Source of the DNA: Rhododendron vialii | Lineage: Eukaryota; Streptophyta; Magnoliopsida; Ericales; Ericaceae | Length of the DNA: 64,000 nucleotides | Assembly: GCF_030253575.1 (NCBI RefSeq) | Contig: NC_080558.1 | Span: 20,100,611 to 20,164,610 of the forward strand | Direction: 5' to 3' | Shown: positions 11,346 through 41,036 of the stretch, piece by piece | Layout of the letters: each line of letters begins with the position of its first letter | How positions within the stretch are numbered: position 1 is the stretch's first letter | Translations under genes and position numbers: made by a program | The notes under the pieces: generated by a model | What the model was told of the DNA's origin: nothing | What the model saw: only the letters and a program-made list of their open reading frames with translations | The model's database searches: none

Positions 11346-11366
11346 TAAAAATTAAACATGTTTTAC

Positions 11367-17502: not shown

Positions 17503-18178
17503 CAAATATTTAAAATATCCTAAGCATTTGTGCACCCATTTTCCACAGAATTTTCCCAAATGTGGCAATGGTGGAAATAAAATTGATCAATCTCCTTTGA
17601 GAGTGTATGTGCAGTAGTGTCTTGCTGAAGCTTTTTGTAAGGACCCGTATTTTTTTTAGATATTATTTAAAAGTTTCATAAATGTTAGAAATTGAAGAAA
17701 ATGTGAAATTTATTGAGTTTGTTTTGTTTTATTTGGGGTCAACGTGTTAGGATTGATATTTGAGGGAGTGCAAGTGTGATTTGTGGGGGTGCTAGTATAT
17801 AAGTGTAAGTGTGTGTGTAGGAGAACAAAATTCTCCCATCTCACTCTCTCTCTATCTCCCGATCTCTCCCTCTCCAACACTCAAAACTCCAACCCTCACT
17901 CAAAACCCATGGCAAATAACCTCCAATCCTTCATCCATTCACGTTGTTGAGCTCAAAATTTCGTGGTTTCGCTCGGAGGAGGAGATTCGGTTGATTTTGA
18001 AGTTTTCGGAGTCTAGGGCTTGATCAATCGCTTGGGTTTCGACCACATGAGGTAGGAATTTCTTACTCTTGTTATGAGTTTACGTGATGATTATGTGCCT
18101 AAATTGTGCCTTAGTTTGTTGGGTTTTGAGTTTGTGCTCGTTCTTGGTTTTCTGCAAAATCGCCCGCTGTATTGCATT

Positions 18179-18342
18179 GGTACCAATACCAACTTTTTGA
18201 GGTACCGATACCTTAGTACCAATACCTATTTTTTGAGGTACCAAATACCTACTTTTTGAGGTATTGGTACCTTGACTCTAATTGCTCACTGGATTGGTTT
18301 GGTACCAATACCTACTTTTTGAGGTATTGGTACCAATGATTC
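18179..18342. repeat. Tandem array with GGTACC-type palindromes in solo LTR 1
   Basis: Four to five degenerate units of about 30-40 bp built from TGGTACCAATACC and CTTTTTGAGGTA. The array follows AAATCGCCC, the same context in which solo LTR 3 carries a different palindromic array. Confidence 0.8.
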
Positions 18343-18764
18343 GTTTATTGTTCTAATCCTTTCGATACTCGTTAAAGGTAATCTTAGTATCGTCGTAAAT
18401 GAAAAATGAACCGTAAGGTTGTTTAGGTGTACCGTAGGTTATATGAGGCGTTGTGGTGAGTGTGATGGGTAGTTGTGAGTTTGGCTAGTGATCCAAAAGG
18501 GTAATATAGTAACTCGTATCCTTGTGATTTCATCTTGTTGATCACCCTAAACTCCTTGGGCTCTCGTTTTATGAGATTCTAGTAAAGTGGCTAGTGGTTA
18601 GAGAGTCGTAAAGTTACTTATGAGTTCAGTATGTTGTGTAGGTTATGGTGATGTACTTAATGGAAATGTGTGTGCTTATTTATTTGTTGGTGTATGTGAC
18701 GGTTGATGATTTGTAGCATAATGAGATATGAATGACTATTTGAAGTTACGGACACAACGAAAAC

Positions 18765-18901
18765 TTGACACTACGGTTATCACCACTCGGTGGTGAGACG
18801 ACCGGAATTGACACTACGGGTATCACCATGGACATTCGGTGAGACGACCGGACCATGAAAATGAACGGGTATCACCATAGACATTCGTTGAGATGACCGG
18901 A
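18765..18901. repeat. Tandem array with GAGACGACCGG units in solo LTR 1
   Basis: Three imperfect units containing GGTATCACCA, ACATTCGGTGAGACGACCGG and variants. Solo LTRs 2 and 3 have different tandem arrays in the corresponding middle part. Confidence 0.8.
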
Positions 18902-20201
18902 AACGAGCGATACATGCGAAAACCTTGGATGTTATGAAATGAGATTATCGCAAAAAGAAAGAAAGATTGGTTTTTGCTAAATTGGATTGTTTAAAAGGGA
19001 AAAGGATTTTTCTATTGAAAATCCTCCAGCTATTCTTGAGCGAATCAACGGTTTCCGGTATTCGTGCACAGAATCAACGGACTCCGGCTATTCAAGCTCG
19101 AATCAGCAGAGTTTGACCACTATAGGTCATGTATTTCCATACATTACACCTATTTGGAAACAAAGGAGATTTGTTGATGAAACAAGGAATGCATGTGAAA
19201 GATTGTGAAATGAGAAAGAATGTGGGAACATACCTGATGTGATGAAACGGTTGAGAAATCAAATGTTGATTATTTGTGATTGATGTGGGAACGTTTGTGG
19301 CACTAGTGTGGCGTGTGAGATGATAGGTGTTGCATATAGGATTGTCTAGAATCCTTTAGCCATAGTGAGTTGTTTGTTGATAACCATATAAGTCTTGGGC
19401 ATATCTGTCTATATTCATTCACTTTAGATGCATAACTCGGCATATTTTCTTATAATCTGTGTATAGATTTCTCTACTGGGCTAGTGTAGCTCAACCTATC
19501 ATTTTCAGGTACATTGCAGGTCATTGTCGTGAAGTGCTTGGAGTGCATGCTAATGTTGTTGTTTAAAGCTATTTTTGGAAGCACTTGTCTATTTTTTTGT
19601 AAACTAAACTGTATTGTATTGTACATCTTTTGTGGAACTCTAAAATTTATTGGGCATGTTTGTGGATTTGAGGATCGAACTACCTTTTGGGTTATTAATT
19701 GTAACTCTGGTGAGGATTTTAATTATCAAATGTTATTATTATTTGTGTTGAAAATCGAGGACGTGACACTTTTATACTTGCTGAACGACATCACTAGTGG
19801 AAAGTGGCAATGATATTTTTTCCAGGAAATAGGGACCTCCTTCATGGATGTTGTTAATTCTTCCCACAGCAATGCAACAGGGGGCACATCAGTCGGCGAA
19901 TTTTGGTATGATGTTTGAACCTATAATCGTAGATCTTACCTAAGAGTAAGCTCTTTTCCCCTAATATTAGACTGCCATCATCGGAGAGAATATACATGTA
20001 ACCACTGAAATGTATGCTTGCCCACCTAATTGGTGGTTCCCCTTAATGCCCTTTTTGATCCTATGGTGTAGTACTTTTCTCCCTCATGCTATGTGCAAGT
20101 CAGACCCAAAGTGACTAGCAAGCACTCTAGCAACTGAAAATGAAGAGTCTTGTACAACTTATAACATGCTATTGGTATGTCGATGACTATTTAGAAAGTT
20201 G

Positions 20202-20759
20202 GGGCTGATTGGGCTAGTAGTGGAAAATAGATTTTAGTTTGTGTGACTCGCTACATTATATTACAATAATGTGCCAAATGTGGGGAACGCTTACTTCCAG
20301 ATGTAGATATCACGATGACTTGGTTTGGTATGGTTAGGTGACAAGAGAGGTGGTGGCGAGAAGGGTCAAGGTTTTTACGTAGTTGGAAAACCCCTTGGAA
20401 TATTTGGGTTGGTATCTTAGCAAGGCCATATTTATGACCATGAAACAAATCCTGCTTGGTTTGATTTTTTTTTGGAAGTGCTAAAATCCTACTTAGTATG
20501 GTATTTTTGGAAGTGTGTTAACCTTCCACAAGGAGAGTCAGAACCTCCCCTATCTCGTTCAATGGGAGATACCGGAATCTGGGATAGGCAATCTTTGCTT
20601 CAACGCATGATCGTTGACTCCTGAAAGACCTCACTGATATAAGAAAATTGTTCCAAAGACCCGAAGTAAAATTAGGAACATTGCCCTTTATCATGACCAA
20701 ATGTGACCTAATCCTTTTAGAACGTGCTTGGATTTAACTCATAAATAAATCTTCAATTC

Positions 20760-20790
<31 letters not shown>

Positions 20791-23700
20791 TCTCTCTCTC
20801 TCTCCACACACACACAGACACAAAAAAAAACCTGGCTGTGCCCTTGGGTTTTGGTTGTTAGAAGTTAAAGATCTTGACAAAAGAGAGTTGATGTCAATCT
20901 ATGTCCAACTTTGGTGTTGCATACACTTCTCTGTTAGTGGGACTGCTATCAGCCATTGACTAGACTTCTCCATTACATAATATTACTCGTGTATTCAAGC
21001 ATTGCACTGAGATTCTATCTAAGGCTTTTTTTCATGCTAGAAGTTGCAAAACATATTTATTTATGATGATTCCGAATGCTACCATAGGAAGTAAGAAATA
21101 AGGAATTGTGTGAGATATCTTTTCGTAAATGTGGACACCATTACAAGGTTATTTAATGAGAGTCCAGGACACAAGAACTAACATTATTTTTGTCATAGAA
21201 CAGATTCTTTGAAACATCTCGAATCATTTGATAGCCTTGTGAAATACAGAGACCATGCCATGCATATTTGCATATAATGTTTGCATGAGTCATGCCACCA
21301 GAGTTTTTAGTGGACAAATCATATAGTTTTTAGTGGACAAATCATATATTTTTGAACATCAAATTGATTTCTAGGGGAACCAAAAGAAGTGCCTGAAGCC
21401 TCATAACTCTTTCTTTCTTTCTTTCTTTTGTATTGTTTTCCAAGCATACATTTCACTTTCTTTTTTCCTTTTGTTCCATATTGTTTGAGGACACAAAAAC
21501 TTTAGTACATAATACACACACTAAGTAGCAATCTAGTGGACTAAAACTTCTTTCCTCTTCTAACGAGGTTCTTTGTCTCTAGATGCTGTTGAACCAAATG
21601 AATCTTGGTTGTTGTTATAGAAGAAATACTTGTCTATTTTCTTTTCCAGCCAAATTGTGCCACATTGTTGTATGTTTGACTAGTCTCGGGGTAAAGAGGA
21701 CTTGGGTTGCAAGTTTAGATTCTCAAGTTAAGAAGTGCCAATGATAAAAATGATGTAGTCTTGCGAAGGTCGATTCATGCTAAAAATAGCCTTTTGGGTT
21801 CCATTGTCAAAGATGTATAACGAGAAGTAATGTATGCATTAAACAAATATAAGAGCTCCTTGTCTTGCCAACCATTACAGTTGCTTTGAACTTCCAGGTG
21901 GATCCCCAAAATAGATTCCTTTCATAAAATGACATCTGATGACACACATGCACGCACATTAGAACTTTTGGAATCGAATCCTTACTTTGGGGAAGAAGAT
22001 CATCGAAGGTGCTTAAGGATTGTCTCCCGATGAGCAGAATAGGTAATGGATGAGATAAGGTTGGTAAATTGCAAAACATGACCAAAAACACATTGGTGTA
22101 GTAGGGAGGATACATTTTCACATTCCTTTGTCTTTGTTAAAAAAATCACATTTGTAAGTATTGTATTAAATTTTTGTGTATTCGTCTAGACGAGAGACAT
22201 TGGAAAAGCAAAAAATTATGAGCAAAACTCATAATTTTTTTAAATAAATATGAAATTATCTGTCAGGAAACATTTGCTTTGGCTATATCACCAAACACAC
22301 CCCACAAAAAATCCCACACAAATCCTTACAAAAATGACGTCCCATCCCACAAAACTTCATCTGCTACTGAGGCAGAGGATACTTTAGCTAAAGAACTAGC
22401 TAAGTCTACAAAAAATATAACCTAAAGAACTAGCAAAGTCAACAAAAAACATAAGCAGGTCTTGGACGAAAACTTGAACTACAGGAGTTTTACAAATGTA
22501 GCATACTGAAAGGAGAACCATATTACTTGCGGTTTTTACTGAACCACGTGGGCCCAAAATTTTATATTAACTTGCGGACGGTTAATGATCAAACTAACTA
22601 TACATCTTAGGTTTCTTTGCTCTTCAGCATACCATATTTCGTGAAAACATACTAAACTTACAATACATCTTATGATAGATTTTCTTGTTTAACTATTATG
22701 GTTAAACATTGGATGCACTCAATATTTGGAGAAGCATTGCTTCCCTCCTATAATGAATTGTTATGGGTACTATTAAGCTGCATATATCGGTGAACCGATT
22801 TTAAGCTTTACTTTTCAAGTTTCTCTCTTCTCTCAGTTGTGTGGTAATATATTATTTTGTGAAGCTTCATTTTATCTATAATTCAACTTGAAAGTCATAC
22901 AACCATATTAATGCTCTAAGCAACTAATTATTAACCTACAAATGCAAATTGTTTGCTTTCTTGTTACATCATATGTATAGATTATAATCAAATCCTTAAA
23001 AATTGCAACTATATTGTGTTACCAATTCTTACTTACATAAACATTCATAACAAAACCAAAGAATAAAAACTATTTGTGGAATCGGAGATATTTCATGTGC
23101 AAAAGTAAATGCAAGCCACGAGCCTTTAGGAACTTAAATGTCTCTGCTTGCACAGTTTTTATATATGGTACTTATTTTATCTAGGACTAACAAATGTGCC
23201 ATTAGATATGCAATTTGATTTGGTTGTTTTGTAATTGGGAGCTTCGGTTTGTTAGCAGAATTATGGCTTTCATATGTGTTATGCATATATTTTGTTTGAA
23301 GAACACGCAATACTGTTACACATTGTACCCCAAAATACTTATAGAAAATCCGCCAACTTGATTAATTGGTGATTTTGACTAATGTGAGAATACCTAATTA
23401 CTTCTTAGACCCTAAAATCTTGCCATTGGGGGTCCCCTAAAATCTAGGCGTGGGGGTCCGCTTAGGTCAACTTGTGACTTTCAGTGAATTTAGGTGGATT
23501 TAGATGGGTATTATAGTCTTCGTAACGATCCTATATGTACCTGACTTTTTCTATCAGCCTTTGGTTTGTAATTTTAGGGTAATAGTGTCATTTTGTTGTC
23601 TACCTTTTAATGAAGATGAGATGCAATAAAATATCTGATTAGGGATTATTCACCTACATAAAGCAAAAGATAGTCATGTTTCAAGCACGGTTAGTTGCAG

Positions 23701-23830
23701 TTCACCTATTAAGTTATTCGCCATCATTGCAATTATTTATGCTGATGAATTGATTAATTATTTCAAGCATGGTAGTGGACGAGGGGGAGGTTAAGGGCTA
23801 GAGGGGATGGTGGTTGTTGCCCATGGATGG
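20202..23830. other. Unassigned AT-rich DNA after the GH127 pseudogene
   Basis: No supportable gene. It contains a CT microsatellite (20760-20807), a TTTC run (about 21408-21428), a fragment of the foldback family near 22170-22250 and a tandem duplication of about 35 bp near 22387-22455. Confidence 0.45.
20760..20807. repeat. CT microsatellite
   Basis: An almost pure (TC)n run interrupted once by CCC, followed by CACACACAC. Confidence 0.95.
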
Positions 23831-23834
23831 TGGG

Positions 23835-24165
23835 TAGGGTGTAAATGAGCCAAGCCCAACCGAGCTTCGGCGAGCTCGAGCTTGGCTCATTTACTAAATG
23901 AGCCAAAAACTCGAGTTCGAGCTCGGCTCGAGCCCTTAACGAGCCGAGCTTAGTCATTTACTAAACGAGCCTCTTTAATCTAGCCGAGCCTCTCTTAACG
24001 AGCCAAGCTTTAGTCGAACGAGCCGAGAGCTCGGCTTGTTTATTAAACGAGCCAAAAACTCAAGCTCGAGCTCAGCTCAGCTCATTTACTAAATGAGCCA
24101 AGTGGATTCGAGCTTTAACGAGTCGAACTGAGTTGAGCTCGCAAGCTACTCGATTCGTTTACTTG
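23835..24165. repeat. GAGCTCGAGC-rich element, hAT-like non-autonomous repeat
   Basis: The left end GGGTGTAAATGAGCCAAGCC and dense internal repeats of GAGCTCGAGCTTGGCTC and AACGAGCC are typical of a common plant hAT-like repeat. The right end is decayed and no target duplication is clear. A fainter relative lies near 42055-42190. Confidence 0.5.
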
Positions 24166-25049
24166 GGTTAGTGTAGATTTGATAAAATTGGATTTAGGTT
24201 TACGTGGATGATGAGGGTATGTTTGAAAAGTTAATGTGGGTGTAGCAGAAACACAGCACTTGAAAGGTCTTTTTTGGTTTCAAGTAGAAATCGCTTTTGT
24301 TTCATTGGTTTCCAAGGAGGTAAAATTTGATAGTACAAAAGATGGAGTGAAATAATATGGAAACAGCTATTGAGGTGGTATGCTGGCATTCTTATGAAAT
24401 CAAGTTTTGGGTCTTCATTGTAATTACAATTTTCATGTTTTCCTATCAGTATCAAGTTGCCAACCAATCCGTGTTACCTGCTTTGTCATATTATGCATAC
24501 GTTATGCGGTTAACTTCTGTTTTAGCTATTTTATGTCATTGCAAGACCAAAACCTTGCGAAATATATGGGAAGTGCATATTAACAAGAGAGAACTCGCAG
24601 TAATGCATTTGAGGTTGGCGGCTACAAATGGTATGCAGAACCTGCATTTGGTTTTTGTTCTTTCCAATTGCATTTTTAATCTAATCGTTTAGTTCACTTT
24701 AGTGTTATGGTGGTTCCTCATTATTTGGGACCGATTCTTGAAATGCAGTGTTACTTTGGCTGCACCATTCATTTTCCTTGTAGATTCATGTCAATGCACA
24801 CTTGACATGAGCATGTACGAGCCTCTTGGGTTAGCTTGAACCTGCTATGGTTTGAAGTTCTTAACCTATGGATTGGCCTAGGTCTAATAAGAGAAAATTT
24901 CATTTTAACCCCTGACCTTTTACTCAAATCATGCAAAGATACCTAACTTTTTAAAAATATCAATTAAACACCAGAGCTATCAAGAAACACATCAATGCTC
25001 CCCCTACCGTCAATCTCCATCCAAAACAAAAGAAAAATACTGACATGTA
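24166..25049. other. Unassigned DNA left of the copia element
   Basis: No gene supported. A 111-codon frame at 24357-24692 resembles nothing I recognise. About 24890-25030 resembles a TIR-type repeat arm (ACCCCTGACCTTTTACTC). Confidence 0.4.
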
Positions 25050-25222
25050 TGTGAAAGTATTCGATATATCTTTGTGTATCTCTCTAATTAAGGCATAGAT
25101 TAGGCATATCTTTTTTGTATATTTTCTAGGATTAGCTTTTCCTTAAACCATTGTCAGCATTGTATTATGTATCATCTCAATTAGCTATACAGATTCTCTT
25201 TTCTCTCATATGTTCTATCGCA
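25050..25222 (+). repeat. Copia 5' LTR (173 bp)
   Basis: Starts TGTGAAAGTATTCG and ends TATCGCA directly before the primer binding site. It is shorter than the 3' LTR because a block of about 35 bp (around 31525-31560) is missing. Confidence 0.85.
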
Positions 25223-25240
25223 TGGTATTAGAGCGTGGTT
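25223..25240 (+). other. Primer binding site (initiator tRNA-Met type)
   Basis: TGGTATTAGAGCGTGGTT follows the LTR end and differs by one base from the usual plant copia site TGGTATCAGAGC. Confidence 0.8.
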
Positions 25241-26921
25241 CGATCAGACCCTAATCCTACCTCTGTTGATCGTCTTCTCTCTGAGTCACCCTCTCTGAGT
25301 CAGTCCTTTGTGCTGCAAATCTCAGTGTGTTTTCTCCCTCCCTCGTAATATCTCAGTCAACCATTTAGCACCCTACCCTCTCTTTCGACTCAGATCAGCC
25401 CCTCTCTAAGGACCTCTGCTCTTTCAAAACCCTCAATTGATATATGTTCTCAAAACCTTCAGCCAATCAAAACCCTTCAATGAATCATCTCCAATCTCTA
25501 GCAAACTCCCCTGACCTCCAACGAACTCCAAATCTCCCTCTCTCACTTCTTGAAACAGATCTATTTAAAAGGGTACATTTCCGATGACCAGAGTCAGGCT
25601 CCAGTGACGACCATCAGACTTTGACAACCATCTTAACTTGCGACAGCAATCTTGATCCTCAACGAACCACGACATTTATCTCTGAATCAGATTTGTAGAG
25701 TACTTCACATTTTTGCATATCCAACAATACGTTGTTATCTCTGCCGCTTCGCTAGTTATCTTTATTTTTGGTTCTAAATCTCTGGTCCACAGCACTTTGG
25801 TTCTTTATCTCTACTCTGCATTATGGTTATCTAAGACTTGGTACTCTGGTATTTTTGCTATTACCTATTGCACAACATCAGCGATTCAACACTATTCAGT
25901 ACTGATCTGCAATATTTGACTTTGTTTTTCCTGTTTGGGTGTTATTTAGAATTGTTTGGGACTGTTTTGCTTTACTCGTCACTGTTTGGGTACTATTCGG
26001 CACCTTTTCGAGTACTATTTTGCATTGTTTGGACAGTGTTTGCCACTAGTCTAAACTGTTTGAGCTGTTTTGGCACTATTTGGTACTATTCTGCACTGTA
26101 CGAGTGTTGTTTATGCACAGTTTAAGACTGTCCAGGACTAATTAAGCACCTATTTATCTGTCTTGACATTCTTTTGTCGGTTTCTACTACTGGTAGTGTT
26201 CCATTTTCCCTTTTATTTGAGCAATTTGAGTAGTATCCGGTCTTAATGGTGGCCATTTAGAAAGATTCATTACAAGCTTCTTTTATGATCAAGACTCAGT
26301 CAGGTTTGCATGGCTCTTATACTATAGGTATCTTACCCACTACTTGGATTTTCGATTCTAGTTCCTCTCATCATATAACTCCTAATTTGTCTCTCTTTAG
26401 TCAATGCACTACTCCTGCTTCCCCTATTAGTACTGCCACTGCAAATGGTTCCTGTATGAATGTTGTTTCCATTGGTTCCATTCTCCCTACCTCTAACTCT
26501 TTCTTGTCTATCTCATATGTGTTCTGTGTTCCTCAATTGTCTTTAAGTCTTCTATCAATTAGTCAATTGTTTGATTATGGATTTGATGTCTTATTTTCCT
26601 CTTCTGGTTGTGTTGTGCAGGATTGGGTGTCCAAGAAACAAATTGGGACTAGGCGTAGAATTGGTGATCTCTATGTTCTGGAAAGCTTGCAAATTCCTAT
26701 AGAATCTACCTCCACGGCCATTTTGTCTTTTTCCCTAGATCGTAATTCCTCCCCCTTTCATCTTTGGCATTCTAGGTTAGGACATTTGTCTAGTGAACGT
26801 CTAAAACTGTTTGTTAAATCAAGCCTTTTGGGAAATATTTATGTTACTAACATTTATGAGTGCAATGATTGTAAATTTGCGAAAATGTCCGCTTTGCCTT
26901 TTAATAGAAGTACCTCAATAT

Positions 26922-27077
26922 CTACCTCTCTTTTTCAAGTCTTTCATACTACTGATCTTTGGGGTCCATCCCCAGTTGCCACTTAAGGTGGTTCTATCTT
27001 ATCTACCTCTCCTTTTTAAGTCTTTCATACTACTGATCTTTAGGGTCCGTCCCCAGTTGCCACTTAAGGTGGTTCTA
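26922..27077 (+). repeat. Tandem duplication of about 77 bp in the copia integrase
   Basis: Two near-identical copies, 26922-26999 and 27000-27077, each contain CTTTCATACTACTGATCTTT and CCCAGTTGCCACTTAAGGTG. The copy covers the first catalytic Asp motif of integrase and creates a frameshifted repeat. Confidence 0.85.
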
Positions 27078-29354
27078 TCTATTATGTCTCTTTTGTTGTT
27101 GACTATAGTAGGTATTCGTGGGTTTATTTGATGATGCGCAAGTCTGAATTCTTTCAAATTTATTGTAATTTTCATGCCATGGTTCAAACCCAGTTTTCTA
27201 CCACCATTAAAATTTTACATTCTAATTTGGGTGGAGAATATTCTCTCTCTGAGTTAGTTGCTTTCTTAGATACACATAGGACTATTCATCAATCATCATG
27301 TACTAACAGTCCTTCCCAAAATGGTAGGGCTGAAAGAAAGCATTGTCACCTTCTTAATATTGCTAGGTCTCTACTATTGTCGTCTTCCGTGCCTTCTTTT
27401 TCTGGGGAGAAGTTGTACTCACTATCACCTATCTTTTGAATCGGATGCCCAATCCTTTTCTCTCTGGTAGTTCTCCTGATGAGCGGTTATATGGTTAGGT
27501 TCCTAACTACTCTCCTCCGTGTGTTAATATGGTCAGGTTCTTAACTACACTCTCCTCCGCGTGTTTGGTTCTACTTGTTTTGTCCTCCTCCCCAAGAAAG
27601 ATCGCACTAAGCTAAGTGTTCGTTGCGTCTTATGTGTCTTCTTGGGTTATGGTATTAATTAGAAAGGCTATCGGTGTTATGATCCTGTGTCCAAAAAGCT
27701 ATATGTCTTTAGGCATGTTACCTTAGAACATCTACCATATTTTGCTCTTCTTGCCAAAGTTGCTCCTGCAGCCAAAGAGGATTTAATTCGTATCAACCCA
27801 TTCCCTAGGTGTCTGATATTTCTGCAGCTCCCTCAGCTTTTCCTCGTTGTGCTCCTATTTCTCCGTTTCCCCAGAACTACTCCCGTCGCGTAGCTTCTCC
27901 ACCTCCTTCACCTAGCTCTCCTACTCCTTAATCTATCTCAGAGGATCCTGATCTGCCTGCTCGTCGGTATCTGAAAATCGCCAACCACTGGTAAAATATG
28001 GCTTTAATAATACTTATTTCTCAGCTTCTTATCATTCATTTCTTTCTCGGATTCACACTTATTTTGAGCCTAGGTCATATAAAGAAGCTTATAATGATCC
28101 CAATTGGGTGGATGCCATGAATGCCTAGCTCACTGCTCTTGCTCAAAATCATAATTGAGAGTTGGTTCCGCTACCGAAAGGTAAAAATCTTATTGGTTGC
28201 AAATAGGTCTACAAGGTCAAGACTCATTCTGATGGTTCTTTGGAACGATATAAAGCCCACTTAGTTGCTAAGGGATTTTCTCAGAAGCATGGGATTGATT
28301 ATGAGGAAACCTTTGCTCCCGTCGCCAAAATGACCACTGTTTACACCTTAATCTCTGTAGCTACAGTAAACTAGTGGCCTCTTTATCAATTGGATGTCAA
28401 GAATGGTTTTATCAATGGATATCTATCTAAAGAGGTTTATATGCGTCCTCCTCCAGGCTTCTCTCATTCTTCTGGTCTTATTTGCCACCTGCGACATGCT
28501 CTATATGGCTTGGAACAGTCCCCTCGTGCCTGGTATACACGATTTCAGGATGTGGCTCTTTAGATCGGTTTCCAGCCTAGTATGCATGACTCTGCTCTCT
28601 TTCTCTGTCGCACATCTCATGGTCTGGTTTTTCTTTTATTGTATGCGATGATATGATCATCACTGGTTATGATCCTACTACTGTTAATGAAGTGAAATGT
28701 CATTTATTTCGCGAGTTTGAGATGAAAGACTTAGGCCATCTTTAGTATTTTCTAGACATCGAGGTTGTTTCCTCTCCTAAGGGGTATCTTTTGGGACAAT
28801 CCAAATATGCCACTGATATCCTTCACCTTGCTTGTCTCACTGATACCAATTAAAACTATCGACACCCCTCTCGAACTTCATGCCAAGTTCTCTGCTTCTG
28901 ATGGTGTTCCTCTTGAGGATCCTACAGAATACCGTCAGTTGGTGGGTTGCTTGGTCTATCTTACTGTGACTTGGTTAGATATTGCCTACGCCGTTCATAT
29001 TGTTAGTCAGTTTGTCTCTGCTCCTCGGTCTACACATTGGGTTTTTACGTATTATGCGTTATGTGCGTGAAACTCTTCATCAGTGTCTTCTGATTTCTTC
29101 AACCTCGAGTCTGACTCTCCAAGCTTATGCTGATTGGGCCGGTGATATTAGTGACCGCAAATCCACCTCTGGCCTTTGTGTTTTTTTGGAAGATTCTCTT
29201 ATCTCTTGGAAAAGCAAAAAGCAATCTGTTGTTGCTCACTCTACTGCTGAAGCTAAATATTGTGCTATGGCTCTACCTCAGAAATAGTGTGGCTTCGTTA
29301 GCTTCTCTTAGATATGGGTGTCTCTATTTCCTCTCCTACCCCTCTTTATTGTGA

Positions 29355-31230
29355 CTAGTGGTTGGGCATTTGCGTTGCATGTGGTTTTTTTGCCTACATA
29401 TAATCTTTTGTGTTTGGGTATTTTGTTCATTTTCCCACCACATATGAGTACCCTGGAAAGAACATGAACCCAAACATGCATATGAATTTTGCACAAGTCT
29501 CCAATAGTTTTCTCTTGTACAAATATTTCATTGTGAAAACGATCGTTATTGATAGTACATTAGTTTGAGGTTGCCGGCATGAATAAATAAATAAGTTTTT
29601 TTTTATCATATTTTACTATAAATATAAATAGTCTATTTGGCAATGTGGGTACGAATTATACCTTTGTGTCCCCCATATAGATATTCCATAAGCATTTGAT
29701 AGTTTTTGAAGGTCCTTGCATATGAGTCACCATATCTTGTCTTGCAATTTTACTATGCATATGGGGTATCATTATGTTTTACGGTGATTGGTGGTTGAGA
29801 TTCTCTTTGGTTATCCTTTTTGGCATTGGATGTGGGATGATAAGTATATGCATTTTTGTGAAGTTATTTTTCTCAAACTCAACCACTTTGATTCTTTTCA
29901 TCAAAATTGCAGTGTGTAGCTCCCATTAATTGAGATCTTTTAGCTTTGCTTGAAAAGCCTTCTCTATCACATGTTGTATTTCCTTGGGGAAGTCATTCCT
30001 ACACTTCATGTAGCTTTACTTGGAAAACCTTCTTTATCAGATGGTCTATATCTTTGGGTAATTCAGCCTTCAGTGTTGAAACTGTCTTCATCTTGGTCAA
30101 CATTGTTATCAAAGTATCTTGTTCGGTACCTCTTAAAAGCAATGTCAGGTCTTCTAATATTTTGAAGAACTCCATTTTTAAAATTTTATGATTAATTTCC
30201 TAAGCCAAAAAACCAAGTGTAATGTTAGTCTCTATTACGAAGTGCTTCTTACGATGACTCAATTCTATAAACTGTGATGTAGGCCAAATAATAGAAAAAT
30301 TGATACATAATCAAAACGTAATTATTTTAAGAGAAAAACCATAATTTTGTTCCAACATCCAAAAACTACTAAATTTTGTGTTTTTCCATACTTTGGTCAC
30401 AAGCCAATGCTGTTTTCCATTAAAATTTACTATTTATTTTTTGGGCATATTGCAACTCATAGAAAGTGGGATGAAGAGTTTAAGTCTCATGTTAAAGATA
30501 GATGGAAAATGAAATTGTAGAAAATGATCTCTCGCTTCTTTTTTGTTCGGGTTTTTTAAACATGAGCAATCAAATTGTACATTGGTGGTTAGAAACCGTT
30601 TTCAAACTATATGAAAACAAATTAGAGGAATAGAAACGTACTTGGCCAATTTCAGGCATTCGTTAATTAACGATCAAAGCTAGTATTGGTTATATATTCT
30701 TAAAGCAATTTCGTCCCCCAAACTGGTGCTCTTGGAATACTAGAACGATTGTCTCCTCGGGTTACTCAATTATCGACAAACAAAAGTAGCACTCCAATCT
30801 ATCCAAGTGTTTTACTATCAAGAATCCAAAATATGGTATGCGGTTGTGAGCGGAGCAAAAAATGTGAATGAAAAGAGAAGGCAGAGCCTATTTATAGATA
30901 AGAAAGTGATCATACGTAAGGAAGCAACTGTACAGAACGGACACGACAGTTAATGGCGAATTGATGCCATTGGAACTGACACAGAACTAATTGTATAAAA
31001 TCTTTGCCGTTGGAAACAAAATGAAATTAAACTTAACAGGTCCAAACCTTTTCCTTTGTTCCTTTTTCCATAGCATCTCCGGGGAGGTGCATCCTTTGGG
31101 AAGTGTGTTGTATTGTGTCGTTTGGGGAAGAGGCATAGGGTGTGGTAGGTATTAATCGAAAGTGCTACGGGCATTTGTGGAAAACAAAAAGTGGGAAACA
31201 TCTTCATACATTTAAAAGAAGTAGTATAGA
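29355..31230 (-). mobile_element. Non-autonomous Helitron (1,876 bp) inserted in copia RNase H
   Basis: On the minus strand it starts TCTATACTACTTCTTTTAAA (31230 downwards, after a host A) and ends CCCAACCACTAG (29355), followed by a host T. Just before the end is a decayed hairpin region related to the plant Helitron 3' signature (CATGCAACGCAAATGCCC). Removing it gives an A-T junction that restores the copia RNase H reading frame without gain or loss of a base, which confirms both borders. No RepHel coding is present. A TATA-like CTATAAATAGGC lies on the minus strand at about 30890-30900, possibly from a captured promoter. Confidence 0.9.
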
Positions 31231-31460
31231 TAAGAAGAGTGCTACTTAGATTGCCCATAACTCAGTCTTCCATGAGCGTACGAAGCATATTGAAATTGAT
31301 TGTCATTTTGTTCGTCAACATCTTTAGTCTGGCACCATTACCTTACCATTTGTTTCGTCTACGCTGCAGCTGGCTGACTTCATTATGAAAACCCACACTG
31401 CTGCTCGTTTCCGCTTTCTCCTTGGCAAACTCTCGATGCTCTCCGCTGTCACATCATGAG

Positions 31461-31495
31461 GTTTTTTTTTTTTTTTTGGGGGGGGGGGGGGGGGG
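31461..31495 (+). repeat. T-run and G-run at the copia polypurine-tract position
   Basis: About 17 T followed by about 18 G directly before the 3' LTR. The G run touches the LTR as a polypurine tract should, but the length suggests slippage expansion. Confidence 0.8.
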
Positions 31496-31706
31496 TGTGA
31501 AAGTATTCGATATGTCTTTATGTATCGCATAGATCAGGGGATCATATCTCATTGTATCTTTAGTTAAGGCATAGATTACGCATGTCTTTTTTTTTTTTTC
31601 TTTTCTAGGATTAGCTTTTCCTCTATTTAAACTACTGTTACCATTGTATTATGTATCATCTTAATTACCAATACAGATTCTCTTTTCTCTCATATGTTTT
31701 GTCACA
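31496..31706 (+). repeat. Copia 3' LTR (211 bp)
   Basis: Starts TGTGAAAGTATTCGATATG and ends TTTTGTCACA. It shares the middle GGATTAGCTTTTCC and the end CAGATTCTCTTTTCTCTCAT with the 5' LTR. Confidence 0.85.
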
Positions 31707-32393
31707 ATATACATTTTTTCAGCAATACCAAGAGCAGTGGATGCCCACTTGGTTTTAGAGGGAAACTCTAAAACCCTAAATGGGTTTTGTAACGACTCTA
31801 ATTTTTATTAAATAAAAATTTCATTTAAATGTTGTTATTTCTTTTAATTACTTGATATTACTTTAAAATTTTCTTTTAATTCCGTTAACTCGTCATAATT
31901 AAGTTTTAGTCCTTTTAAAATTCCTTCTTTTGATTAAAAGCCCCACTTGGCTAGTAGAGTTAATTTTCAACTGACTAGTTGAACAAACCAGACTACCATT
32001 TCTCATAGTTACACTTCCCGAACCCTAATTGGACCTTTTTGACCGTCTTAGAGCCTTTTGAACCCCCCCCCCCCCCCCCCCCGAACCCTAATTGAACCCT
32101 TAGACTTTTAGGGGTAATCATTATACCCCATGACAAGTCATTTCAAACTCTGATTATAACCAATATTCCTATACCCTTTGGTCCAAAATTGCTAGGGAAA
32201 TTTTTGACCATTGGTCATTGGTTATCAAGTTGCCAATAAGGCATTGATTTGACCATACAAAATCATGGGCCAAGGAATCTCATCATTTTGCTTCCAAAAC
32301 TAGTTAACCTAGCCATGCATGCATGCAACCCTAGGATTTTAGCCTTAAACCTAATAACCCTAGACTTACTTTCCTAGACACACATATATATAC

Positions 32394-32398
<5 letters not shown>

Positions 32399-32460
<62 letters not shown>

Positions 32461-32471
32461 TGTACATATGT

Positions 32472-32513
<42 letters not shown>

Positions 32514-32558
32514 GGAGGCCGAATGGGGAGAGGGAGGGAGAGTGTGTGTGTGTGTGTG
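32399..32558. repeat. Compound microsatellite (TA)n-(CA)n-(GA)n-(GT)n
   Basis: A TA run of about 45 nt, a CA run, a GA run of about 38 nt and a GT run follow each other inside solo LTR 2. Reading frames across it are artefacts. Confidence 0.95.
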
Positions 32559-33996
32559 CAAATTTTGGACACTTACACAAGCTACTTATTGTACACTCAA
32601 CCTAGATTCTACTTGACAACCCATGACTAGACCACTTTAAGTATGATCCTAGCCAATGATGTTATTCTTTCTTACAAGCCAACCCATTCTAGGATTTGAC
32701 AAGCCATAGAACCTTCATTATAACCTAGGATTTGGCCTATTATTGGATTGACAAGTGAGGAAGGGCTAGGACTTTGACTAAAGTCTTGAAATGACAAGAC
32801 TATGGAGCAAAATCCATGGGGAAAAGAGAGGAGAGGGAGGCCGGCCATGGGGGAGAAGGAAGAGCCCAAGTTTTGCTATAAATAGCACCTCCCCTTCACC
32901 CTTTCAACTCACACCTTCACTCACTTCTCTCTAGAAACCATTTCCATTTTTCAGACAGCTTACTGCCCTTCACAAATCTCCATTTTCCTCCTGCTTAAAG
33001 TAGTTTTTAGAACCAACTCCCTTCGGAAAAGTTGTAGAGCACTTCGAAACCTTCAAGTTAGACCCAAAAACCATCCCAATCGGTGAAGAAATGACAAAGA
33101 TATTGGCATCCGAAGTTCAGTAAAAATCTCGGATTTCTATTTCCAGACAGCATACTGTCTTCTCTTTTATCACCATTTTTCTCCTACCTAAAGTAGTTTC
33201 TAGGATCAACTTCCTTCACGAAAGTTGTAGAGAACTTCGAGAGCTTCAATTTCGATCCAAGAACAATCATATTCGGCCAAATATTGACTGAGTTACTGCC
33301 ATCCAAAGTTTGGTCCAGATTCGCGAGTTTCACCGCCCGTAGAAAACTTCCAACTAGCTTATTCGGCCCCGACTAGTTTCGGATCAAGGTTGATTTCTCT
33401 CCTCACTTCCCTAAGTATAAGTAGAATCCCTAGTCTACTAACTCTACGTGTAGTATAGAATCATACGTTAGAAAGTAGAATGTTCTTGATTCAAAGTATC
33501 AAAATCGTAGATAAGATTATCTCTTGTTTGGTTTCAAGTAGATAAGGTTATCGTTTAAAATACATGATTGTCAATAAGTTTATCTCGCTAATGGAGGTAT
33601 GAGCATGTTAGATAAGTGACTTTGTCTTAAATAAACATATGTTGTATTGAACTTCCCACAAAAGAAAGAAAGAACGATTTTCGAAAGATGGAATTTGACA
33701 CTTGAATAGAAGTATTCGTATTTTGATCTGTAGGATAGTTGTGAGCATGATTATAATTGGATAATCTTAGTTTCAAGATTACAATGAATGATTTATGTTT
33801 ACCTTTATGAATGTTTACTTTGTGATAAGTCCTACCGCGTAGTCTATGCATGAAAACGAGACACAAAAATCAAGAAAGTTAGAAACATGACACCTAGGGT
33901 ATGGTTAACAAGAAAAATGTGTTTCGAAGGAGGAAATATTTTTGAAACTACATAATGACCAATTTTGATGGCATTATGGGAAATGTGTGTGTGAAT

Positions 33997-34197
33997 GTGT
34001 GCCAATGGGAACCCGGTGCGGCGGAACCATTGTGAGGATACTCGGGAGACCGGAACGGCGGAACCGAGGTTGGGTGTGTGGCTTGGTTAACCGCGGAGAA
34101 GAGCCAATGCAAATGTGTGCCAATGGGAACCCGGTGCGGCGGAACCATTGTGAGGATACTCGGGAACCCGGAACGGCGGAACCGAGGTTGGGTGTGT
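33997..34197. repeat. 118-bp tandem repeat, two copies, in solo LTR 2
   Basis: GTGTGCCAATGGGAACCCGG starts at 33997 and again at 34115. About 83 bp are almost identical, including GGAACGGCGGAACCGAGG. It is GC-rich compared with the surroundings. Confidence 0.9.
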
Positions 34198-34965
34198 TAA
34201 AAACGGATTTTGAAAATGTTGATTTGGTTATGAAAAGTGAAAATAGACACACGGTCTACGATGAGTCGCGTAGGAGAAACACAGAAAAACATGGACACCA
34301 GCGATACTTGAATAGTGAATGTGGATGTGTGATTGTTACTATTTGTCGTATATGATTTACTGTTTGGAAGTTATAAGTTAGTGGGTAGGGTTTATTCTAT
34401 TGAGCTTTTGTAAGCTCACGGTGTTACCTTTGGTGACCCTGACATATTATATTGGTGGCGACGCCGGTATAATGTGTCAGACCTTATAGATGAACAGGGT
34501 GAACACTATACCTTGGAAGCTTTCGGAGCCGAGGAGCTGGCCAGAATGGAAGAAGAGGCGGAGTAGTAGATAAGAACCGTAGTCTACCCTCCTTTTGTTT
34601 AATAAAGTACTCTTGGGAGAATTATGTTGTAATATTGAGCTAGACTCTATTTAGATTTTCAATGAAATTGCCTTCTTTAACGTACCCAAAATTGGGGGCG
34701 TTACAGGTTTTTTCCCTCCAAAACTCACTCCTCCCTCCACCCAAAGACAAAACTCTTAATTTTTCATCTCCTCCATTTGAATCCATCAAGGTTGGGTCTT
34801 CAGTAAAACCCTTGTTTGAAAAAACTCATTTAGAAAAGTTTGCTAATTTCCAGTCCATCGGAGAAATCCGTAGATTCATTTTTTACTTCAATTTGAGTAG
34901 AAGTATAGGTAAAGGATGACCTCGGCAGTGCCAACTCTGAGCTAAAGCGAGAGTTGCCTGCTTTA

Positions 34966-35276
34966 GAGCATCTACAACCTCGGCTTCAAATTGAGCATGT
35001 CAATTTTTTTTGAAAGCTTACATGGCAATTTGCCATGTTAAAATTTGACATCTTCAAGGTGCTCATTCTAACCAACATGTCAAATTTGTTATTTTAGAAA
35101 GTTTTGGAGTAAAGTGATGAAAATAAATTTTGACATCACATGTCAAATTTGACATAAGAGATGGAATTTCAAATGATACACAAGCATTTGAGATTTGAGT
35201 TGAAATTGCTTCACATGTCAATTCTTCCACTTAGTATGCCATGCTAAATTTGACGTTCCTTGTTGGAGATGCTTTC
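34966..35276. mobile_element. MITE with GAGCATCTMCAAC termini
   Basis: The left end GAGCATCTACAACCTCGGC and the right end GTTGGAGATGCTTTC are inverted repeats, a common plant MITE end (possibly Mutator-like). Repeated ATGTCAAATTTGACAT-like palindromes fill the inside. No clear target duplication. Confidence 0.55.
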
Positions 35277-35686
35277 AAGCTCAAAAAAAATTCAAATTTT
35301 AAGAGTCCACTTTAGTGTGACGCCCATTATAAAATATCAAAGAGAGATAATTTACTTAAAAACCTCTTGTCTTTTTTTAAAACATCTTGAACAATTTTTG
35401 TAGGTTAAGCACCCTTTTCAAGAAAATATAGAATTAGCAAATATATTTAAATATGTTTGATTCTTTATCTGATCATAAAAATCCACATTCCCAAGATCTC
35501 TTCCTTCTCTTCGAGATGTGTTTTATATTTTACTCGGGTAAAGAGAGCTGATTTTGGCGCTCCAAGAAAGACCACAAGCGCTCCAAATTTTGGAGCTTTT
35601 ACGTGAAGTTCCTATTTTACCCTTATCGTACACACCAAGCATGTTTCCACTTCAGATGATTTTTTAATATAAAAATAATCTAAAAA

Positions 35687-35962
35687 AATTAAGTACTTCA
35701 ATTTTCAATCCGTTTGAACAAGTGCAAAGATTTTATTTTTTTGATTATTTTATCTTAAAGGGTCATAATTAATTTTTTGCTCTAAAGCTTTCATATAGGA
35801 GCTCTAAGAGAGCTGTAGAATCAAATAAAGAACAAATACTTAAATATGAGAACCCTAGAGACAAATATTAGTTATGACCTTTTAGGATAAAATGATACGA
35901 AAAATAAGATTTTCACACTAGTTCAAATGGATTTAAAATTGGAGTACTTAATTTCCTAACCA
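35687..35962. repeat. Foldback MITE family B, copy 1
   Basis: Arms of about 100 bp (35687-35785 and 35863-35962) are imperfect reverse complements, each with TTCAATCCGTTTGAAC-like and TTGATTATTTTATCTTAAA-like blocks. A second copy is at 43531-43800. Confidence 0.7.
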
Positions 35963-36351
35963 TGTTTTTTAATATAGAAACTGTCTCAAAGATATAATTA
36001 CTTCAATTTGTTCCCTCGGGTAAATACCCCCATCTTTTTGTTCTGCCTGAGGCCTCCAAAGGTTGGAGCCACTGAATTTCTCCTAAATTTATGTTGTATC
36101 TAAAGAACTATAGGCTAGACAATAGCAATATTTCTAGCAATTAATATTAAAACGCAACTCTATACATAGTTTTGTCCCATAAGATCTAGCATATTTCGGT
36201 GAGCTACTCTCTTTTGCTTAATGGGCAGGCTTCCGGGTTTGTTCAACCACAAAGGGGGCTTCGTCAAGGGGATCCACTATCTCCGTACTTGTTTCTGCTA
36301 TGTGTTGAGGGTTTGTCAGAGATGCTCTGGAAGGCCGAACTCAGGAACATG

Positions 36352-36527
36352 ATCCATCGAGTGCAATTTTGTTCACCCTCCTTCCTATTGGTTGAAATGG
36401 TGTGGATCCACCACATAGGAAGCATGACATCACTTTGTGGTGGGATCCACAACATTTCAACCAATAGGAAGGAGGGTAATATTCACCTTCTTAAGTGGAG
36501 GGCAAACAAAACTCAACTCTAATCCAT
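36352..36527. mobile_element. 164-bp foldback MITE in the LINE, TSD ATCCAT
   Basis: 36358-36521 is a palindrome: the left arm runs from GAGTGCAATTTTGTTCACCC through TCCTTCCTATTGGTTGAAAT; the right arm mirrors it and ends AAACAAAACTCAACTCTA. ATCCAT lies at 36352-36357 and 36522-36527. Removing the element restores the LINE reading frame across the join, confirming the borders. Confidence 0.85.
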
Positions 36528-38943
36528 GGGGTCAAAATTTGTCGAGGGAGTCCTCCGATCAGCCACCTTCTTTTTGCAGATGATACAATTGTGTTTTTTA
36601 AAGTGAACCAAAGGGAGGTGCAGATCATTGATTCCATTTTGACGGATTATAAGAAAGCATTGAGGTAGCTCATTAACTATCAAAAATCCTTGCTATTTTT
36701 TTTAGCAATACCAGACAAGATTGAGGGTGGAGCTCAATGATGTCATATCTATTCCAGTTCGGGCAGACCTTGGAAAGTATTTAGGTCTCTCGACTGAAAT
36801 TGGTAAGTCAAAGACTGAGCTTTTGAGCTATATAAAGGATAGAGTATTGCAGAAATTGACGGGTTGGAAGGAGAGGTTGATTACGCTAGCAGGAAAGAGG
36901 TATTGTTGATGTCTGTAGCACTTGTTCTTCCTACGTATACTATCTTAGATTGAAGGGTTGTGTCGTTAGATTGAAGTAGCTATGGCTAGATTTTGGTGGG
37001 GTCAAACTGTGAATGAACGAAAAATTCATTGGATGAATTGGAGTCGATTGTGCAAGGAGAAATTCAAAGGTGGACTTGGGTTTCGAAGTGTTACTGCGTA
37101 CAACTTGGCCCTCTTAAGCAAGTGTGGTGGCTCATGATGGCTCCCCATTGTCTCATGGCTAAGGTACTTAAAAGTAAGTATTTTAAGAATTGCAGTTTCA
37201 AGGAAGCTGGTTTGGGGACTAATCCATCATATTTTTGGAGGAATATTTGGGAAGGGAGGAAAGTTCTTTCAGCGGGGATGCGTTGGACGATTGGGAATGG
37301 AACATCGATTCGGGTGGATGGTGATCCTTGGATTCCTAAAGTGGAGATTTCAAGGCCAGGAGGGTTGTGGTTGATGATAGTATAGAGATAGTGGATCAAC
37401 TCATTAATCTGGTGTCAAGATCTTGGAAGTTGAGTGAAATCCAGAGGTTGTTTGATAGTGATTAAACACGATGCATTTTGAGCATTCCTGGCCAATGTCA
37501 TGCACAAATGCCCCTGACTCTTTTTGTATGGCATTTCTCCTATTTGGGAACATATAATGTCAAGTCGGGTTACATAACAGCAATGGAGCTTAGCAAGCAA
37601 GGTTCAATGACAAGTGGAGATGAGGGAAATTCTACTTCTGGTGTCCTTTTAGAGAATCAATGGCTACATCAGTGGAGACACAAAATTCCAAAGAAGATTT
37701 TGCATTTTATTTGGAAGTGTCTTCATGAGATTTTGCGACCTAAATCAAAAGTTTTACAAAAAAAAGGTTATTGAGGAGTCAAGCTACCCAGTTTGTGCGT
37801 TGGAGGCGGAAATGGTTCTGCACTTGCCCTTTAGCGCAACAGGTCTAGTCTTTGTTCCCTTTTAACACGGGCTTGGTTGGTGCTAGTTACAATTCATTTG
37901 TTGATCTGTGGGATGCTTTTGAGGGTCATTGGCAAAACGTATCGAATAAGGACTAGCATTTTTCTCTTATAGCAGTTGGGATGTGGTATATATGGAAAAA
38001 CCGAGATGGTGCTGTGTTTGAACATAGAATTTTGCTGCCTCGGGTTGTTAGTTCTAAGGCAGCAGGTTGCTTGGATGAATACTGAGCAGTAAACCGAGTA
38101 ATGGGAGAGACTCTGAGCACTAGAGAGGAGGTTTGTACATTGCTTGGCAGCATCCGAGCACTGGTTTTGTCACGCCCTCGATTTTCAACATAAATATATA
38201 ATCCATTTCAATTAAAGATCCTCACATAACGTTAATAATACCTAAAGGAGTTCCCATCTGTTCAATTTATAAAATAAGTCCCCAAGTCAAAAGTTGTACA
38301 ACTTTGGTACTCCGGCCCAAATTAAGCTTAAGTTCTGGTATAATAAAGTTATCAAGTTATAGACGATTTAGTCAAAAGAAATTTTAGAGTAATTAATTAC
38401 AAACTCATCTTTATCAAAAGGAACTCTTTAGAAAGATGATAAGGTAACCAAATAATATTTAGCTTCCAAAAGTCTTCAGTATCCAAGCACAAGATGCATG
38501 CAGCTACTGTCCAGTATTTAAACTTGAAAAGAATGATTAGGTTCAGTTACACTAGCCTAATAGGAAAATCTTAACCAATACTATGTGTAAATATAATGAC
38601 AAGTGCATAAGGATGAAGACACGAGATACAATTCAATCGATGGATAACAATCAATTCATGAGTATGCCAACATTCAATACGATCATTCTAAGACTTGCCA
38701 TTATCACAATATGCCAACTGGCTCACAAGACATTGACAACTCTAGTAATCTCGACATGACTCACTATCGCCAATCTCTACCATCTGTATTTCCACCCCTT
38801 GCGTTACAGTATAACACCATGAGGGTTACCGCATTAATAGACTTACATTCCGGGTCTTGAGAACCCCGTACGTCTCGCAAAGATCTCCAACATGTGTCCA
38901 AGTACCTCATTGTTTATTGACTCATCAAATCGTGAACTTAAGG

Positions 38944-39093
38944 AACTTTTCGGGTCTTAAGGCCCCATATACCCACAATATATTCCGGGTACTCGTGACC
39001 TCGTACATCTATTTTGCATTCCGGGTCTTAGGGCCCCATATATCCACAATACATTCCGGGTACTCGTGACCCCATACATCCATTTCACATTTC
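38944..39093. repeat. Tandem array with CCGGGTACTCGTGACC units in solo LTR 3
   Basis: Two units of about 70 bp with TTCCGGGTCTTAGGGCCCCA and ACATTCCGGGTACTCGTGAC; a partial third unit lies upstream near 38850. Confidence 0.85.
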
Positions 39094-39823
39094 ATACCAC
39101 GTATTTCCAAGACTCTAATTTCAAGAATATTGATAGGAGAGAGATATTGATATTAAGTAGGTAGTTCACATATTAACTCGTATTTCCGTTTTGTTCCCAA
39201 ACTCTTTATCTCAACTCACCCCTCGTATAATATGGCACAAATTATCAAGTTGTCACATTGTACATTAATAAATACCTTAAGATTACATTAATCCTCTGAG
39301 TCTATCATGACGCCTTTTGTCATGTACCGTACCCACAAATGACTCCACGACACACCATCCGGTAGGTTCTAAACAAGAATCTTACTGAAAGAGTGCCAAA
39401 GGAACCTAGGAAGATCAACAAGACGATGCACGAGGATACGAGTCATAATCCTATCCACCGGATCACTAATATTATACTCTAATGAGTGCCAAGAGACAAG
39501 ATCAAACGAGTCAATAGGACACAAGTAATCATACTCAAGAGTGACTTAAACATGTTCTAATTATATAGGGAGTCGTAACACAGAACGAGAAATTTAAGAA
39601 TAGCCATAGACACTGGCAGATTGACACACCTCTACTCAAATGACCATAACTTTCTATGTACTCAGAGTCTTAAGGTGATTCTGATGGAAATGGAAAGCAA
39701 ACTTCAAGACCTACGAATCGATATAAAGTCTGCATAAATCAAACATCAAACGAAGAAGTTATGGCCATTTGAAGTTGGGCTGAAACCTAAAAGACGGACA
39801 GAATTTCTAGAGAGTGGAGGGAT

Positions 39824-39917
39824 CGATCTCTCCTCTCATGGGGATCGATCCCCATAGGGAAAAATCCAGTTTTGAAGTGAGGGATCGAACCCTCGTGCTT
39901 GGGGATCGATCCCTGGG
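39824..39917. repeat. GGGATCGATCCC palindrome array in solo LTR 3
   Basis: Four variants of GGGATCGATC(C) in about 95 bp. On the minus strand the array follows CTGCAGAAATCGCCC, the same context as the GGTACC array in solo LTR 1. Confidence 0.85.
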
Positions 39918-41036
39918 CGATTTCTGCAGTTTTTGACAGACTTCAAAGAGAGCGAAGGAGGATGATCAAGGTTCGATTTCCACACCAAATCAATATACAA
40001 ACACATAAAAGAGGTAAAGAAGTCCCTACCTCACAACGAAAACCAAGCTCAAAAGCCCTAGCCTCCTTGAACTCCTCCAAAGCTTCGTTCTAAGCTTTAC
40101 CCGGCGAAACCCAAGCTCAAAAGCGCGAATGGAAGATCGAATGAAGGTTGATTCTTGAGGATTTTGTGAGCTGGAGTGAAGTTTTGTGAGAGAGCAAGAG
40201 AGAGAGAGAGAGAAAGATTTTCGGCTAAAGAGAGAGCGAGAGGGACGGTAGAGAGAGAGATACAAGGAGATAAAATGATCTCCCACACCACACACATCCC
40301 TTTTATACCTCTATATCTTTATATCACACTTACACTCCCTCTAGTTTCTATTCTTTCACTTCAATCCTCAATTCAAACAATCACATAATAAACTACATTC
40401 TCCCAATAGGCATTTAATATATATTTCAAAATTTTAAAAAAAAAAAAATCTCCGGGTCTCTACAGGTTTTGTTAAAATTAATGTGGACGGAGGATGGGCA
40501 AAGTTTTTCTAGGAAAGGTGCGTATGGTGTTGTGATCAGAGATGCAAATGGGATGTTTATTGCTGCTGCAGCTGGTTGTTTGTCTTGGTGTGGAAGCCCA
40601 GAAATTGCAGAGGTCATGGTGGTTCGTCGCGGCGTCCAAATGGGGCTTCAATTTGGACTAAATGCAGTTATGGTGGAGAGTGATCCCAGATAGTCATTAA
40701 CATGATAAATGGGAATACCATGGTCAACCAAAGCGTGAATTCTATCATCCATGATGTTAAGGTTCTGAGCAATGATTTTCAAAATTGTATCTTCTAATCT
40801 GGTTGCGCATACTTTGGCTAGTAAAGGTTTAGGTGGGTTGGATTGTAGTTTTTGGACTAAATCCCCTCCTATTTGGCTTCTTGATCCTTTGTTTAGGGAT
40901 GAAGATTCCTCTTGATGTATTTGGCTTGAGATTTATAATACCATCTGTTATTGTCTTAACAAAAAAAAAATGATCTAGCATATTTCTATAATTTTTTGAG
41001 TTTTGTCCTTATTTAAAAAAAAAATTGCATGTTTTA

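Follow-up and report, generated by a model that had tools for sequence, protein, structure and literature searches.

Arrays of short palindromes inside long terminal repeats (LTRs) were analysed in a window of 64,000 nt of plant-like DNA and in the genome to which it belongs (532.6 Mb, 13 contigs). The window contains three solo LTRs, designated copies 1, 2, and 3 (Table 1), and copies 1 and 3 carry such arrays. Within any one copy of their lineage nearly all recognisable units have a single 12-bp palindromic word, and the word varies by clade. The arrays suggest that symmetry itself, not a particular sequence, is what matters in them. According to the explanation favoured here, which is tentative and held at somewhat less than an even chance, copies 1 and 3 are solo LTRs of two related Ty3/gypsy families whose leader arrays would have been selected for self-complementary pairing, a mechanism read from sequence patterns.

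Position of the arrays across the genome

The window's own genome was searched with two queries, the opening 565 bp of copy 1 and the opening 560 bp of copy 3. Both contain the anchor AAATCGCCC; the first array unit is complete in the copy 1 query and for the most part included in that of copy 3. Relatives are the best 40 of 1252 candidates for copy 1 and the best 40 of 728 for copy 3, with counts that are lower bounds and favour the nearest relatives. All matches except a 72-bp fragment and the copies of the window itself were fetched, 78 in number; of these, L098, having no array and a copy 2-like stretch, was dropped. The remaining 77 relatives together with copies 1 and 3 give 79 LTRs.

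Array units are present in 79/79 LTRs, with the first unit, sought within LTR positions 480–960, found at 540–625 (interquartile range 557–573). A 2400-bp scan confines the clade words to LTR positions 500–1200, save for 3 class A matches, and places none earlier than the arrays. The change of array at a fixed LTR position, which the initial annotation of the window had described, thus recurs across the genome, and sorting the collected copies by array type, as it had proposed, yields six word classes at the same place. Random placement of the arrays, which it had taken as the outcome that would speak against its claim, is rejected by these positions.

The sample includes LTR pairs of the same element (five among the 13 class C copies, one in A, and one in B), and its copies are not all independent. 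In two of the C elements the LTRs show no difference across the 2501 bp compared, and in a third they are 99.96% identical, while the other four pairs are lower, down to 88–90%. Given the near-identical pairs, some array-bearing elements have therefore moved recently.

Word classes, purity, and spacing

The classes are A (word GGTAYCGRTACC and decayed forms, 26 copies), B (GGGATCGATCCC, 34 copies), C (CCTACCGGTAGG, 13 copies), D (GGTACATGTACC, 1 copy), E (GGTATCGATACC, 3 copies), and F (TGTATCGATACA, 2 copies). Because their assignment used both the arrays and the query clade, the labels are not independent of the words and the informative count is the purity within a copy. Among units within one mismatch of a word, those with the word of their own class amount to 131/131 in C, 11/11 in E, 121 of 122 in B (the other 1 being ambiguous), and 94/117 in A, where the remaining 23 are closest to the E word, one symmetric step off. 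In class A the commonest spacings are 22 and 42 bp; class B has mostly 21, 22, and 40 bp, and class C mostly 21, 52, and 41 bp. Units are mostly paired 21–22 bp apart in classes A, B, C, and E, with 24 bp in the single D copy. A central CpG occurs in every representative word save D.

Kinship of the three elements

A scan of the window for TGT...ACA ends with few mismatches, 300–8000 bp apart and flanked by an exact 5-bp duplication, returns just copies 1, 2, and 3. Each has the TG...CA ends, the 5-bp target duplication, and the absence of an internal region that define a solo LTR.

Copies 1 and 3 are homologous, with a local alignment score of 76 compared with a shuffle maximum of 39 (0/100 shuffles as high). 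Identity is 79% in 95 columns of the 3' end, 69% in 149 columns of the middle, and 63% in 518 columns of the 5' end; long middle parts of the alignment are at the shuffled level (mean 0.44, 95th percentile 0.55). The 80-80-80 rule for one family asks for 80% identity over 80% of the length, of which copies 1 and 3 fall short. By these alignments they are related families, not a single family.

As for copy 2, with simple repeats cut out it scores within the shuffles against both copies 1 and 3 (8/100 and 5/100 as high, respectively). Its sole exceedance is that of its first 300 bp against copy 1 (31 vs maximum 27, 0/100), and what it has in common with copy 1 is this weak signal and the terminal letters. 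Windows of 60 columns with >60% identity number 15/75 between copies 1 and 3, compared with 1/71 between copies 2 and 1 and 1/79 between copies 2 and 3. Neither the anchor AAATCGCCC nor palindrome units were found in copy 2. Relatives of copy 2 were met by chance inside some fetched genome stretches, and for this reason it is regarded as a family of its own: a separate family with similar terminal letters and without a comparable array. Copy 2 has internal duplications of its own (98% identity at 33994–34197 and 74% at 32940–33331) and a single long hairpin at a position not equivalent to that of the arrays. Copy 2-related sequence also occurs within or next to LTRs from the lineage of copies 1 and 3 (L084, L098, L101, L104, L058, and L061).

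Within the window the anchor AAATCGCCC occurs once in copy 1, once in copy 3, and nowhere else; the units that come after it are of the TGGTACCAATACC type in copy 1 and GGGATCGATCCC in copy 3. Masking the units leaves AAATCGCCC and ACTGGATT common to both copies in the same order, whereas two collinear shared 8-mers arise in 0/3000 shuffles. In each of the two copies the array is the lowest-energy 110-nt sense-strand stretch of its own LTR. The folding z score is −7.2 for the sense and −10.2 for the antisense strand of the copy 1 array; for copy 3 it is −3.8 (0/200 shuffles) in one run and −3.7 (1/200) in another. Both arrays start ~380–400 bp downstream of a TATA-like box and are therefore probably transcribed. 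In copies 2 and 3 this box was chosen by the authors among several TATA-like matches; with its CT-rich stretch, it lies at LTR position 1090 in copy 2, compared with 161 in copy 1 and 158 in copy 3.

These results agree with the initial annotation on the three elements, their similar-looking ends, and their exact duplications. Its single family of three copies is rejected: copies 1 and 3 are indeed relatives, but copy 2, at shuffle level and without anchor and palindromes, stands apart, and membership of a separate family with similar ends, which it had itself considered, applies to copy 2. Likewise, differing arrays after a common context hold for copies 1 and 3 and fail for copy 2, and a TATA-like box with a CT-rich stretch is common to all three, but not its position.

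Kind of element

An internal region was available in L105, an element between the B-word LTRs L075 and L078, which contains Retrotrans_gag, RVP_2, and RVT_1 followed by SH3_Tf2-1 pieces (integrase C-terminal); the integrase core piece is a weak match (E 0.1). The order protease, reverse transcriptase, integrase in L105 is that of Ty3/gypsy. This typing comes from one element and is extended to copies 1 and 3, both of which have no internal region; their lineage would be Ty3/gypsy and probably of the chromovirus kind. No match to a chromo domain was obtained in the pieces scanned, where the frame is broken. The 3.4-kb internal region of a C element has a zinc knuckle in one of two open frames scanned (seven listed). 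The clade may be Tekay/Del, going by the LTR ends and the integrase tail. Searches of viral contigs for the arrays or LTR ends gave 0 matches, and a search of plasmids for copy 1 gave none; a scan of prokaryote genomes returned 9 stretches in bacterial records, which are taken as chance, and no plant relatives.

History of the words

A tree built from LTR positions 1–470, arrays excluded, splits A+C+D from B+E+F (100/100). C forms one clade (100/99) placed inside A via branches with 92/89 and 81/98, and E and F lie inside B. Class labels need 6 changes on this tree, the minimum possible being 5, compared with 37.5 in shuffles, a figure inflated by near-copies. Topology tests give p = 0.03 for A as one clade, and do not reject B and E as single clades (p = 0.33 and 0.38, respectively).

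The words can be joined into a network whose links are symmetric base-pair changes of one or two steps. Six representative words, chosen by the authors, span 6 symmetric steps in total, whereas 5000 random sets need 17.4 on average and never fewer than 10; unrelated replacement words are rejected for this chosen set.

Regarding E and B, the arrays of the three E copies L076, L084, and L102 were aligned with those of all 34 B copies, and outscore every one of the 20 spacer-shuffled controls in 33, 28, and 34 of the 34 cases, respectively. At the symmetric pair 3/10, which is T-A in E and G-C in B, this difference accounts for 210/272, 146/204, and 207/272 letters; letters are the same in 8, 13, and 39 cases, other letters occur in 7, 5, and 6, and gaps in 47, 40, and 20. 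By these alignments E and B units appear to differ at one symmetric pair while their spacers stay homologous. The units have changed jointly and the spacers were left, which therefore implies either selection or stem-templated copying. For A and C, none of 3 A copies aligns with one C copy above shuffles, and against randomly picked C copies 25/26 A arrays are not above shuffles and 1/26 is. The switch between A and C may be an exchange of the whole array. The replacement of units proposed in the initial annotation may thus describe A and C, but the words are variants of one palindrome, and between E and B the change is partly in place.

Proposed pairing and alternative explanations

With the array ~560 bp into the LTR and downstream of the predicted TATA box, the units would probably lie in the transcribed leader, where they would pair as hairpins within one RNA or between two RNA copies. 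The selected property would be self-complementarity, so that any symmetric word could serve provided that the units of a lineage match, and words would drift. The change between clades would have gone through symmetric base-pair steps or, perhaps, the exchange of whole arrays, a route that we infer. Nucleic-acid pairing is favoured because the words change freely yet stay symmetric and alike. The array holds the lowest-energy 110-nt window in 64/79 copies. In the last pair of class A, complementarity from unit to unit is 0.90, compared with 0.68 and 0.70 within units (25/26 copies), which agrees with pairing.

Several observations weigh against this explanation. In none of the 3 copies of D (1) and F (2) is the array the strongest fold of the LTR. 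Complementarity is only a little higher between adjacent units than between non-adjacent units (A 9.84 vs 8.62 of 12, B 11.24 vs 10.95, C 10.59 vs 10.49), and in class A the direct identity of adjacent units is as high (9.87) as their complementarity. Class A units are also decayed, with self-pairing of 0.38 and 0.46 at the two central pairs. Raw E/B spacer identity (0.65–0.67) hardly exceeds that of spacer shuffles (0.62–0.65), and the alignment score alone separates them. Under a looser definition of a unit (two mismatches to a 10-mer), own-class units fall to 159/181 in A, 134/178 in B, and 152/158 in C, some of these loosely defined units probably being chance matches. The sampled copies are related, so the conserved spacing may be mere inheritance. 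Finally, palindromes suit a dimeric protein equally well.

In line with the regulator-binding sites that the initial annotation had suggested, the units could indeed be DNA sites for a symmetric dimeric DNA-binding factor, encoded by the host or the element, with words that follow changes of the factor or escape from it; this is possible but rather unlikely. It would fit the pair spacing across classes A, B, C, and E, which equals two helical turns, as well as the central CpG of all representative words but D. The gaps between pairs in class C lean to multiples of ~10.4 bp (mean offset 0.19 vs 0.25 expected), and the database matches of Sirevirus palindromes were mainly to stress-factor sites (PMC2829016). 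Helical phasing, however, is not general (mean offset 0.23 in A and 0.25 in B vs 0.25 expected), the single D copy has its own spacing, the predicted TATA box is upstream of the arrays, and arbitrary symmetric words are explained better by pairing than by one factor. Mutational homogenisation without selection, in which slippage of a 22-bp repeat in class A and hairpin-templated correction of imperfect palindromes in reverse transcription would keep the units similar and symmetric, is improbable. Class A neighbours have private mutations in common, as with the two occurrences of GGTATCAATGCC in L030 and of GGTACCGATACG in L031, which points to slippage of the 22-bp unit together with its spacer; L031 also has the symmetric double change AGTACCGGTACT. 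Correction within a stem would also spare the spacers, as between E and B. Such a process alone, however, explains neither the fixed position in 79/79 copies nor the agreement of distant B units whose spacers differ, and adjacent and non-adjacent units differ little.

Hairpins read by host small-RNA silencing, with words turning over as old ones become targets, are a highly improbable account. The lowest-energy windows mentioned above would fit it, and LTR palindrome clusters of maize Sireviruses attract an excess of small RNAs (Bousios 2016, via PMC10760457); evasion alone, however, would favour loss of the hairpin over new symmetric words, and maize Ty3 elements generally have no obvious structure peak (PMC10760457). 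As for the preferred explanation by pairing, a further idea, in itself a long shot, is that the word is an arbitrary self-complementary identity tag by which RNAs of a lineage would recognise their own kind, lineages splitting by symmetric steps in all units. Pairing, dimeric protein sites, a silencing target, and a mutational by-product predict different things on the same natural words, and the within-genome series of palindrome words, including elements with identical LTRs, makes the function of LTR palindromes testable.

Comparison with known systems

Sireviruses (Ty1/copia) bear element-specific palindromic repeats in their LTRs (PMC2829016, Bousios et al. 2010). The likeness extends to the clustering of short palindromic units in LTRs, where each element has a total of at least 8, to element-specific words with a core common to all but one element, and to non-random position; the Sirevirus Tnd-1 motif ACAATCGATTGT contains ATCGAT (PMC2829016). 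In contrast, Sireviruses are a Ty1/copia genus with motifs that precede the TATA box, whereas here the host is Ty3/gypsy, the arrays follow the predicted TATA box, and several words joined by symmetric steps occur within one genome. The arrays have what characterises the Sirevirus module, a clustered palindromic motif alike within an element and differing between elements, but the Ty3-type pol order and the distance past the TATA-like box place them outside it. They work like the Sirevirus repeated-motif module and are not a member of it.

Tnt1 is a Ty1/copia superfamily. Its subfamilies differ mainly in a regulatory LTR module, which that work interprets as host evasion or adaptation, but this module is in U3 and the accessible text mentions palindromes 0 times (PMC1838419). 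In Ty3 of yeast, a short palindrome near the RNA 5' end, PAL6, drives RNA-RNA dimerisation in vitro; it is, however, one 6-nt site at RNA positions 391–396, probably in the GAG frame, not a 12-bp LTR array (PMC11381356). Structures resembling microRNA precursors in maize transposable elements likewise connect structured palindromes of LTRs with small RNAs, but in Copia LTRs (PMC10760457). The palindromes described in PMC6911290 are at insertion sites, not within LTRs. The opinion of the initial annotation that replacement of palindromes is unlike known LTR families does not survive the element-specific LTR palindromes of Sireviruses (PMC2829016) and the U3 subfamilies of Tnt1 (PMC1838419). Palindromic arrays in LTRs of Tekay or other plant Ty3 elements were not found in the literature searched, which left most subscription papers outside. 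As far as this search reaches, the Ty3/gypsy host, the site downstream of the TATA box, and several symmetric-step words per genome are new.

Features of the window

Table 1. Positions of the three LTR elements and of their features in the window (LTR positions are counted from the start of each LTR)
Feature	Positions	Strand	Details
Copy 1, solo LTR, 2133 bp	17636..19768	+	LTR ends and exact 5-bp duplication CTTTT; word class A
Copy 1, TATA-like box	17796..17802	+	LTR position 161; CT-rich stretch after; putative start site
Copy 1, anchor AAATCGCCC	18157..18165	+	LTR position 522
Copy 1, array	18176..18337	+	GGTACC[A/G]ATACC-type near-palindromes and two inverted GGTATTGGTACC units, mostly ~22 bp apart
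Copy 2, solo LTR of other family, 2918 bp	31788..34705	+	LTR ends and exact duplication GGTTT
Copy 2, single long hairpin near 3' end	34439..34480	+	19-bp stem, 4-nt loop; −29 kcal/mol, z −6.2, 0/200 shuffles
Copy 3, solo LTR, 2297 bp	38168..40464	-	LTR ends and exact duplication GGTTT; word class B
Copy 3, array	39819..39913	-	four GGGATCGATCCC-type units, spacings 21, 40, 22
Copy 3, anchor AAATCGCCC	39915..39923	-	LTR position 542; plus-strand reading GGGCGATTT
Copy 3, TATA-like box	40301..40307	-	LTR position 158; picked among six TATA-like matches

The frame into which copy 3 was inserted, joined over the empty site, may be the start of a LINE (long interspersed nuclear element) RNase H, going by a motif in a frame with stops; a Pfam scan of an upstream frame (37029–37385) returned no family. 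Outside the three elements there are a cluster of near-palindromes resembling GAGCTCGAGC (23872–24136), whose spelling is unlike that of the LTR arrays, and a 30-bp tandem repeat with 3.4 copies (45528–45629). The window also contains a broken Helitron at 7031–11707 on the minus strand, with a Pif1 2B domain and Helitron_like_N in separate frames, and a Ty1/copia remnant at 26285–26986 on the plus strand, with gag_pre-integrs and Pol_BBD domains. A tRNA-Met(cat) gene (15197–15269) overlaps an opposite-strand match to the plastid ycf2 5' untranslated region family, and the site is probably a plastid insert in nuclear DNA.

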